Source: Glycocaulis alkaliphilus
GTDB taxonomy: Bacteria > Pseudomonadota > Alphaproteobacteria > Caulobacterales > Maricaulaceae
DNA: 64,000 bases
Reading direction: 5' to 3'
NCBI RefSeq assembly: GCF_004000605.1
Contig: NZ_CP018911.1
Location: forward strand, 1,488,001 to 1,552,000
Part shown: piece after piece, positions 43,994-46,387 of the stretch
Numbering within the stretch: position 1 is the stretch's first letter
Layout: each line of letters begins with the position of its first letter
Notes under the pieces: generated by a model
What the model was told of the DNA's origin: nothing
The model's input: only the letters and a program-made list of their open reading frames with translations
Database searches by the model: none
Made by a program: the position numbers and the translations under genes

Positions 43994-44084
43994 CGCCGCT
44001 GGCGCATATCGTGCAACGCCGCATTTTTCCTGACAGCTTAATGACAGACGGCAAAAATTTATCGTTTTTCGGAAAAAACCCTTT

Positions 44085-44119
44085 CATATCGAGTTTCGAT
44101 ATGTTATCGAGTTTCGATA
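44085..44119. promoter_or_regulatory. Tandem palindromes upstream of the bactofilin-like operon
   Basis: CATATCGA-gtt-TCGATATG (44085-44103, 8-bp arms) is followed by TATCGA-gtt-TCGATA (44105-44119, 6-bp arms), with centres 18 bases apart. They end 33 bases before the first ATG of the operon. Two copies of an identical core strongly suggest binding of two dimers of a repressor or activator. The regulator is not identified. Confidence 0.65.
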
Positions 44120-44151
44120 TGGTTGGTCCCTCATCAAAAGAGGTAAGAAAA

Positions 44152-45000
44152 ATGAAAAACCGTCTCCTCCTTTCCACCGTCACCGCCACGGCGGTCATTC
44201 TTGTGGCCTGCGGGCTGCCGCCCGTTGCCTCAAGCTCCTCAGCGCAGGATGGCACGCGTATCACGGGCGGAGATATTCGCCTCTCCCTGAATGAAGACAC
44301 CGATGCGCGTATCACCGGCGCTGACGTCAGGCTCGATGGCCGGGTCGGCGGCGAGTTGCGCGTTGCTGGCGCCGACATCACGCTTCGCGACATGTCGGTG
44401 GGTTCGCTCTCGGTGACGGGCGCTGATGTAAGCTTTGCCGGTGCTGTTCTGGGCGATGCCCGCGTGACGGGCGCTGACATCTCCATCCGGGGCAATGTTG
44501 GCGGCGATCTGCGCGTTCGCGGCGCGGATGTGCGTATGGAAGGCAATGTCGCCGGGGAGGTGGATGGCAGCTTCGCCGACGCGCACTTCAACGGCCGGCT
44601 CGGCAGCCTGCGTGCCAACGGCGCCGACATCCGCCTCGCGGCGGGCTCCATCGTTGATGGCGATGTCCGGCTCAATGCCGCCGCCTTCGACAGCCGTGCC
44701 GCCATCGGCGGAACGCTGCATGCCAATGTTCGCACGGCGCGCCTTGGCGGTTCAGTCGCCGGCAATGCCGACATCTATGCCGACGAAGGAAACCGCCGCC
44801 GTTTGCGTGACACGGACGGGCTGGTCGAGATCAGCGGTGAGCTGTCGGGTGGAACGATCTGCGCGCGGCGCGTTGTTATCTCCGGCACCGTTACCGGGCC
44901 ATTGAGTGTGCGCGCGCTGGAGCCGGTCAGCTTTACAGGCGATGGCACCGCCCCGCAGCTGGACTATACACCGCGCGGCTCTGACCGTTGCCGCCGCTAG
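44152..45000 (+). CDS. Lipoprotein with 17-residue beta-solenoid (bactofilin-like) repeats
   Basis: The 282-residue product has a lipoprotein signal with lipobox LVAC (Cys20). About ten repeats of roughly 17 residues follow, each near [I/V]xGADIxxxGxVGGDxR (for example VTGADISIRGNVGGDLR and VRGADVRMEGNVAGEVD). Such spacing predicts a right-handed beta-solenoid like polymer-forming bactofilins, but exported and lipid-anchored. The end (TICARRVVISGTVTGPLSV..SDRCRR) has two cysteines that could form a disulfide. The ATG at 44152 follows AGAGG. The partner gene with the same repeat starts 48 bases downstream. Confidence 0.75.
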   Translation: MKNRLLLSTVTATAVILVACGLPPVASSSSAQDGTRITGGDIRLSLNEDTDARITGADVRLDGRVGGELRVAGADITLRDMSVGSLSVTGADVSFAGAVLGDARVTGADISIRGNVGGDLRVRGADVRMEGNVAGEVDGSFADAHFNGRLGSLRANGADIRLAAGSIVDGDVRLNAAAFDSRAAIGGTLHANVRTARLGGSVAGNADIYADEGNRRRLRDTDGLVEISGELSGGTICARRVVISGTVTGPLSVRALEPVSFTGDGTAPQLDYTPRGSDRCRR

Positions 45001-45048
45001 TTTTCGCCAGATTGAATTTCCTGAGCCATTACAGAAAGGCTTGAAACC

Positions 45049-46305
45049 ATGATCAGCAAATGGATAGCGCGTTTCGCCCAGACGGGCATGCTGGCCGGGC
45101 TGTTGCTCGCCGCATCGCCCGCCCATGCGCAATATATCGGCGGCGATCTCAATCTTGATCTCGATCAGGACCGTTCGGCCCAGTTCCTGGCCGGCGATGT
45201 GACCCTGCGCGGCCGCGTCGGCGGCGACATTAGCGGCCTGGCGGGCAATGTCGACATTACCGCCGACATAGGCGGCAGCGTCCAGCTGGCTGCCGGGGAC
45301 ATCGTCATCCGCGGCACGGTAGGCCGGGATGTATCGATCGCCGGCGCCAATATCTCCATTCTGGCAGATGTTTCGGGCAGTGCCGACCTGGCTGGCGCTG
45401 ACATCCGGGTCGGTGGACGCGTTGGCCGGGATCTGGCCGCTGGCGGCGCTCTGATCGCCATTGATGAAAGCGGGTCCATCGGCGGCAATATGGATCTCGC
45501 TGGCAGTGAAATCCGCATGTCCGGCACGGCGCAAGGGCGTCTGAAAGGGCGGGCCCGCACCGTTATCATCGAAGGCACGGTGGCCGGCGATGTCGAGCTT
45601 CATGCAGAGAATGTTGAAATCATGCCGGGTGCGCAGATCGCCGGTCAGCTCCGGGTTCGCGGCCCCAACGCGCCTGTCATCGCGGATGGTGCCCAGATCA
45701 TCGGTGAAATGACTTATGAGGAAGCGCCGTTCAGCGAACAGCGCCGTGCCCGCAGCCATGCGGGCCCGCGCGTGTCAGACTTCGGTCCGCCGGTCTGGGC
45801 ATTCGGGACGGCCATGGGTATCGCGGCTTTTGTGCTGGGCCTGCTGGCCTGCCTGATCTCGCCGCGCGCCGTGTCGGGCATTGCCGACCATTTCCGGGCG
45901 CGCCCCTGGGCTTCGGGTCTGCTGGGGCTGGTGCTGGCCGCCTTCCTGCCGATCCTGCTGGTGGCGGTGTTTGTCTTCCTCGCGATCACGGTGATCGGCA
46001 TTCCGCTGGGTATCATCCTGCTGTTCGCCTTCCCCTTCATTATGGTGCTGGCCTACGCATTTGGCGCAGTGGTGCTCGGGGACCTGATCTTCAACCGCTC
46101 GGGCGACGGAATCGGCCTTGGCATGCGTGTCCTGTCGCTCTTCCTTGTACTGGCGGTTGTCGGGGCGCTCGGTGTTGTGCCGGTGCTTGGCTTTATCATC
46201 GGGTCGATTGTCTTCTTCATCGGCCTTGGGGCCTGGACGCTGGCCCTTTTCAATCGCAATCCGCGCATAGTTGCCGCCGAGCATAACGGTGGGGCGGCAA
46301 TCTAG
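45049..46305 (+). CDS. Exported bactofilin-like solenoid with membrane C-terminus
   Basis: The 418-residue product has a signal peptide (cleavage near SPAHAQ). It carries about eleven 17-residue repeats (FLAGDVTLRGRVGGDIS, IAGANISILADVSGSAD and so on, residues about 25-215) of the same type as the preceding lipoprotein. After a polar hinge (about 216-245) come four or so transmembrane helices, including ILLVAVFVFLAITVIGIPLG and a final LGFIIGSIVFFIGLGAWTL. The solenoid would project into the periplasm from the inner membrane. With the lipoprotein upstream it may bridge or line the envelope; this is inference. Confidence 0.75.
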   Translation: MISKWIARFAQTGMLAGLLLAASPAHAQYIGGDLNLDLDQDRSAQFLAGDVTLRGRVGGDISGLAGNVDITADIGGSVQLAAGDIVIRGTVGRDVSIAGANISILADVSGSADLAGADIRVGGRVGRDLAAGGALIAIDESGSIGGNMDLAGSEIRMSGTAQGRLKGRARTVIIEGTVAGDVELHAENVEIMPGAQIAGQLRVRGPNAPVIADGAQIIGEMTYEEAPFSEQRRARSHAGPRVSDFGPPVWAFGTAMGIAAFVLGLLACLISPRAVSGIADHFRARPWASGLLGLVLAAFLPILLVAVFVFLAITVIGIPLGIILLFAFPFIMVLAYAFGAVVLGDLIFNRSGDGIGLGMRVLSLFLVLAVVGALGVVPVLGFIIGSIVFFIGLGAWTLALFNRNPRIVAAEHNGGAAI

Positions 46306-46387
46306 CGTGCCAACGCATAGCTGACTTGCGCAGCGGCCCGGTTCACAGCGCTTGAACCGGGCCGCTTTGCGCGCCATGTTCCCGGCC

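Follow-up and report, generated by a model that had tools for sequence, protein, structure and literature searches.

Within the window (the whole stretch of DNA analysed here, 64,000 nucleotides covering positions 1,488,001-1,552,000 of the 3.02-Mb Glycocaulis alkaliphilus genome, on one contig) two adjacent genes lie on the forward strand, gene A at 44152-45000 and gene B at 45049-46305, with a gap of 48 bases between them; both pairs of coordinates given in a preliminary description of the locus were correct. Gene A encodes an exported lipobox protein of 282 amino acids with a predicted beta-solenoid of about 14 rungs and two invariant C-terminal cysteines, and gene B encodes a protein of 418 amino acids comprising a signal peptide, a predicted periplasmic bactofilin-type solenoid, a linker and a five-helix membrane domain. 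The operon is followed by a perfect 14-bp hairpin (46332-46366), a possible operon terminator with a weak T tract, and then by lipA, and the nearest named record with B is that of Glycocaulis albus, in which the protein is 93% identical. The two proteins had been described as arrays of 17-residue repeats, and this periodicity held, self-identity at lags of 17 and 34 being 0.21 and 0.21 for A (maximum at any lag in 2000 shuffles, 0.19) and 0.24 and 0.28 for B (shuffle maximum, 0.21), but the proposed counts of about ten and eleven repeats did not, as the models give about 14 for A and 11-12 for B.

The lipobox previously noticed in A is present as LVAC, with Cys20, in a signal peptide encoded at 44152-44211 (forward strand), and a cysteine occupies the lipobox column in 22 of 27 proteins of the A/C type, C being a paralogue that comprises exported solenoids of about 220 amino acids encoded upstream in most genera. 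The signal peptide of B (residues 1-27, ending AHA|Q; 45049-45129, forward strand) also stood up to inspection, its A25 and A27 being invariant or nearly so in relatives, but the membrane domain that follows the solenoid (residues 249-401; 45793-46251, forward strand) has five hydrophobic, predicted transmembrane helices and one short amphipathic helix, rather than the four helices first proposed. Loops 1 and 3 of this domain contain lysine or arginine in all 31 B-type proteins and the tail does so in 97% of them, while loops 2 and 4 have no lysine or arginine in any of the 31, and this distribution of charge would place the tail of B inside and its solenoid outside, in the periplasm. The earlier claim that both proteins face the periplasm is therefore upheld, by prediction, from the signal peptide and lipobox and from the charges of the B loops. 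Cys237 and Cys280 of A (codons 44860-44862 and 44989-44991, forward strand) are each invariant in 27 of 27 A/C proteins, and this C-terminal pair, spaced about 40-45 residues apart in A and in C, is as would be expected for a disulfide formed outside the cytoplasm.

Predicted solenoids and their relationship to bactofilins

AlphaFold2 models, for which the input alignments consisted only of relatives read from the fetched loci, gave a beta-solenoid for each protein, as had been anticipated: an all-beta solenoid at residues 35-275 of A (mean pLDDT 90.2) and, in B (mean pLDDT 84.4), a solenoid at residues 29-225 (45133-45723, forward strand), a low-confidence linker and the helical domain. The suspected link to bactofilins was also found by profile, since A (31.4 bits) and B (32.3 bits) both score just over the Pfam Bactofilin (PF04519) cut-off of 27.9 bits; several relatives of A score under it. 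In VIA-align, residues 118-224 of B, its six C-terminal rungs, were superposed on 6rib, a filament subunit of the T. thermophilus bactofilin, at Z 11.1 and with an rmsd of 1.4 A and 29% identity across 96 aligned residues. Other beta-helices overlay B at higher Z than 6rib, with 2odl ranking first, but in longer and looser alignments, and two solved bactofilins were the sole matches at E < 0.001 to the profile of B-type proteins. By the overlay and the profile matches, the solenoid of B is of the bactofilin kind, lengthened at its N-terminus by about five rungs.

As judged by comparison of their profiles (E 5.6e-37 over 203 columns), A and B share a common origin, and the direct match of A to a bactofilin (6ria, E 0.0014) is weaker than that of B. 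The A model had no Foldseek match at E < 0.001, and its structural overlays were led by secreted beta-helices, the antifreeze protein 3p4g (Z 18.0) and the HMW1 secretion domain 2odl (Z 17.9), with no bactofilin, 6rib included, in the overlay list. The location of A and B and their beta-solenoid folds are well supported by prediction. In the known bactofilin polymer the interface aromatic is F130 of BacA or F105 of ThBac, and the equivalent column holds isoleucine, valine or leucine in 29 of the 31 B-type proteins and phenylalanine in the other 2.

That the best overlays of A are secreted beta-helices, that 2odl also ranks first for B and that repeat number is plastic among relatives would fit beta-helical solenoids which do not polymerise but bind ligands or mediate surface adhesion, the targets being envelope polymers such as polysaccharide or peptidoglycan. 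However, the beta-helix overlays reflect a common arrangement and are no evidence of function, and the B profiles reach only bactofilins at the above threshold. We consider this a possible but not a favoured explanation.

Compared with the canonical bactofilins (PF04519; C. crescentus BacA and T. thermophilus ThBac, structures 6rib/6ria and 2n3d), which have a right-handed solenoid like that of B and a significant sequence match to both A and B, our two proteins are exported, A and C have the cysteine pair, and B has the longer solenoid, a five-helix anchor C-terminal to the solenoid and no interface aromatic. Where the canonical proteins are cytoplasmic with an N-terminal membrane-targeting peptide, A and B have predicted signal peptides, lipobox and positive-inside topology. 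The same genome also encodes two proteins of 181-185 amino acids, the size of canonical bactofilins, with strong PF04519 matches (G000:C1:2005522-2005806 and 2608495-2608782).

Distribution of the operon and loss of the A solenoid

The orthologous operon was found in 16 of 61 genomes searched (our own included), usually adjoining lpdA and lipA, and 14 of these 16 retain a full-length A, which supports a conserved pairing; solo B-type genes occur across Bacteria and Archaea. In G033 and at locus L151 only a lipopeptide is left of A, with no solenoid, and in G009 A is cut down to 122 amino acids, in each case with B and the operators kept, while at L150 A is gone and the operators lie directly 5' of B. 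The stretches behind intact operators from which the A solenoid has been lost are L088:7051-7290 and L151:7596-7920, with lipopeptide remnants, and L150:947-1079, where the loss is complete.

Partners of the A type were found only in Maricaulaceae, and 385 alphaproteobacterial genomes, when searched, yielded no full-length A-type protein apart from that of our own genome, compared with a B-type protein in about 35. The B-type architecture occurs without A in Bacillota, Patescibacteria, haloarchaea (L164 and L167) and other groups, and on this distribution and the losses of A we take B as the core, to which A and C were added in Maricaulaceae. The proteins with signal peptide, solenoid and C-terminal membrane bundle in Bacillota, Patescibacteria and archaea share the architecture of B over its full length at 22-28% identity but have no A/C partner, and some Bacillota ones lie in ECF sigma operons. 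Such proteins are often annotated as polymer-forming cytoskeletal protein. At three Bacillota loci (L172:6705-9161, L175:6897-9284 and L178:6932-9275) the B-type gene is 3' of an ECF sigma gene, with a small gene between them that encodes a zinc-finger anti-sigma-like HxxxCxxC motif and had no Pfam match, and at a fourth (L176:1445-3928) it lies close behind the ECF sigma gene. Maricaulis-like genomes (L079:5060-10750 and L087) have as many as four solenoid genes at this locus, between which a gene for an AMP-binding enzyme is inserted on the opposite strand, and in two other alphaproteobacteria (L224:89-2661 and L228:182-2634) a solo B-type gene lies directly 3' of a class III adenylate cyclase-like gene.

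This distribution bears on the idea that end-to-end stacking of the two solenoids joins A and B in one mixed filament in the periplasm, or makes them a bridge from inner to outer membrane. The two proteins are of the same solenoid lineage and encoded in one operon with complementary anchors, and the +2 residue of A is glycine, not aspartate, lipoproteins with a +2 residue other than aspartate being assigned to the outer membrane under the E. coli rule; at a solenoid rise of 0.48 nm per rung two stacked solenoids would measure about 12 nm, and with extended linkers could approach the width of the periplasm. However, B persists in G033, L151 and L150, which have no A solenoid, and in G009, where that solenoid is truncated; the orthologue of A in G004 lacks the lipobox and is not a lipoprotein, B stands alone in most taxa and the interface aromatic is not conserved. 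In addition, only N-N contacts would be left for stacking of A on B, because the C-terminal ends are taken by the two-cysteine segment of A and the membrane linker of B. The A solenoid appears to be dispensable in evolution, and therefore a bridge is unlikely as the main function; an obligatory filament or bridge of the two proteins, as the preliminary description had it, is not supported and is unlikely, given that at least four loci have kept B but lost or reduced the A solenoid.

In the literature bactofilins figure as scaffolds of the cytoplasm, about 3.2% of which carry N-terminal transmembrane helices, and the membrane-anchored P. mirabilis CcmA type resembles B in having a bactofilin domain with membrane segments (PMC12448750), but B has a C-terminal bundle behind a signal peptide. 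It is highly improbable that B is an ordinary cytoplasm-facing membrane bactofilin of the CcmA kind and A a mispredicted lipoprotein, as, in spite of the PF04519 match and the existence of bactofilins with N-terminal transmembrane helices (PMC12448750), B has a cleavable signal peptide with a conserved AxA and a membrane domain C-terminal to the solenoid, its positive-inside pattern sets the solenoid outside, and its A/C partners have the invariant cysteine pair. The halofilins of Haloferax are divergent bactofilin-family proteins (cited in PMC12186497), and the haloarchaeal B-type proteins found here are L164 and L167. In the open-access literature searched, bactofilins were nowhere called periplasmic, exported, secreted or extracellular, although absence there is no proof of novelty.

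The shared palindrome and its candidate regulator

The operator is the strongest new result of this analysis. The common tandem-palindrome operator reported earlier is real, with two perfect copies of TATCGAGTTTCGATA at 44087-44101 and 44105-44119 (18-bp spacing) before A, supporting an operon with a dedicated operator. A third, degenerate palindrome, TATCGTTTTTCGGAA (44060-44074), which has a counterpart 5' of the operator in 10 of 10 aligned loci, resembles the TATCGTTTTTCGATA site 5' of an operon encoding a DUF2975 protein and an HTH protein. The perfect TATCGA-N3-TCGATA would be expected by chance about 0.04 times in the 3.02-Mb genome and occurs only 3 times, twice 5' of A and once 5' of a PF14373 gene, and the reversed control pattern gave 0 perfect sites in the same genome. 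A perfect palindrome lies 5' of A in 14 of the 16 operon-bearing genomes and a related one in 15 of them, and the tandem arrangement is conserved in relatives. Genome-wide matches with two mismatches were at chance level (39 versus 37 for the control) and were not used, and relaxed palindromes at 199736 and 199769 of our own genome, beside what by eye is a HigB-HigA-like two-gene pair, were excluded from the regulon. A perfect TATCGA-N3-TCGATA was also seen in G035 (L108:1501-1515) between pspF-like and pspA-like genes, which may be chance.

The third perfect site precedes a gene for a 62-amino-acid PF14373 membrane protein (L096; G000:C1:1767491-1767708), and a perfect palindrome is found no more than 60 nt 5' of this gene in 11 of 12 genomes compared. 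The PF14373 gene was present in 12 of 12 B-positive genomes and in 0 of 12 B-negative family relatives, except for one 50%-identical paralogue, counts which are uncorrected for shared ancestry; because the B genomes may form one clade, the co-occurrence and the shared operator may have been inherited together. The phage-type "superinfection immunity" function in the PF14373 family name was not adopted from the name.

The related TATCG-N5-CGATA lies 5' of an operon encoding a DUF2975 membrane protein and a 78-amino-acid HTH_26 (PF13443) protein in each of the 16 genomes with B, as an exact copy in 14 and with one mismatch in 2. In our genome this operon (L097:5690-6499) has its own tandem palindromes (G000:C1:119286-119321); this palindrome shows family-wide conservation, and related sites occur in other families of the order. 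One palindrome is common to the operon of the candidate regulator and to its putative targets, and the HTH_26 protein of the DUF2975 operon is the probable regulator of itself and of both envelope targets. The DUF2975-HTH_26 operon also occurs in genomes that lack the A-B system, and therefore the regulator would not be dedicated to this system. A literature search on DUF2975 and YozG gave nothing useful.

A proposed periplasmic solenoid regulon

The explanation that we prefer, and to which we would give an about even chance, is a small envelope regulon with the inner-membrane-anchored periplasmic bactofilin-type solenoid protein B as its core product. The A-B operon and the two other small-membrane-protein gene sets that share its operator suggest a controlled envelope-support system. 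B would display a bactofilin-type solenoid on the periplasmic side of the inner membrane, and A, a lipoprotein of the same solenoid lineage with a two-cysteine C-terminal segment in place of a membrane domain, would serve as its accessory partner in the periplasm. The switch for the operon is probably the Cro/C1-type HTH_26 protein encoded with the DUF2975 membrane protein, which would bind TATCG-N5-CGATA palindromes 5' of its own operon, of the A-B operon and of the small PF14373 membrane protein gene, as a repressor would, and release them once an envelope signal is perceived by way of DUF2975. On its periplasmic face, the inner membrane would then carry a static scaffold made of B together with A and, in relatives, of paralogue C, the C-terminal ends of the A and C solenoids probably being closed by a disulfide.

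We counted in support of this regulon the putative envelope-stress context of B-type genes elsewhere, suggested by ECF sigma genes in four Bacillota loci, and, for B as the apparent core, its widespread solo architecture and the L150 operators directly 5' of B, while the interface aromatic of polymerising bactofilins, which is not conserved in B-type proteins, was counted against it. A bolder and distinctly more tentative possibility is an extracytoplasmic bactofilin cytoskeleton, in which B, as a polymer or an array, would line the inner membrane on its periplasmic side, capped by the lipoproteins A/C in disulfide-closed form, and an envelope switch of HTH_26 and DUF2975 would have it built when needed; in Bacillota a B-type scaffold of this kind would be coupled to ECF sigma factors.

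If a widespread family does present the bactofilin solenoid beyond the inner membrane, the concept of bactofilins would no longer be limited to the cytoplasm but would include the periplasm, and the operator with its probable regulator would make an uncharacterised envelope regulon open to testing.
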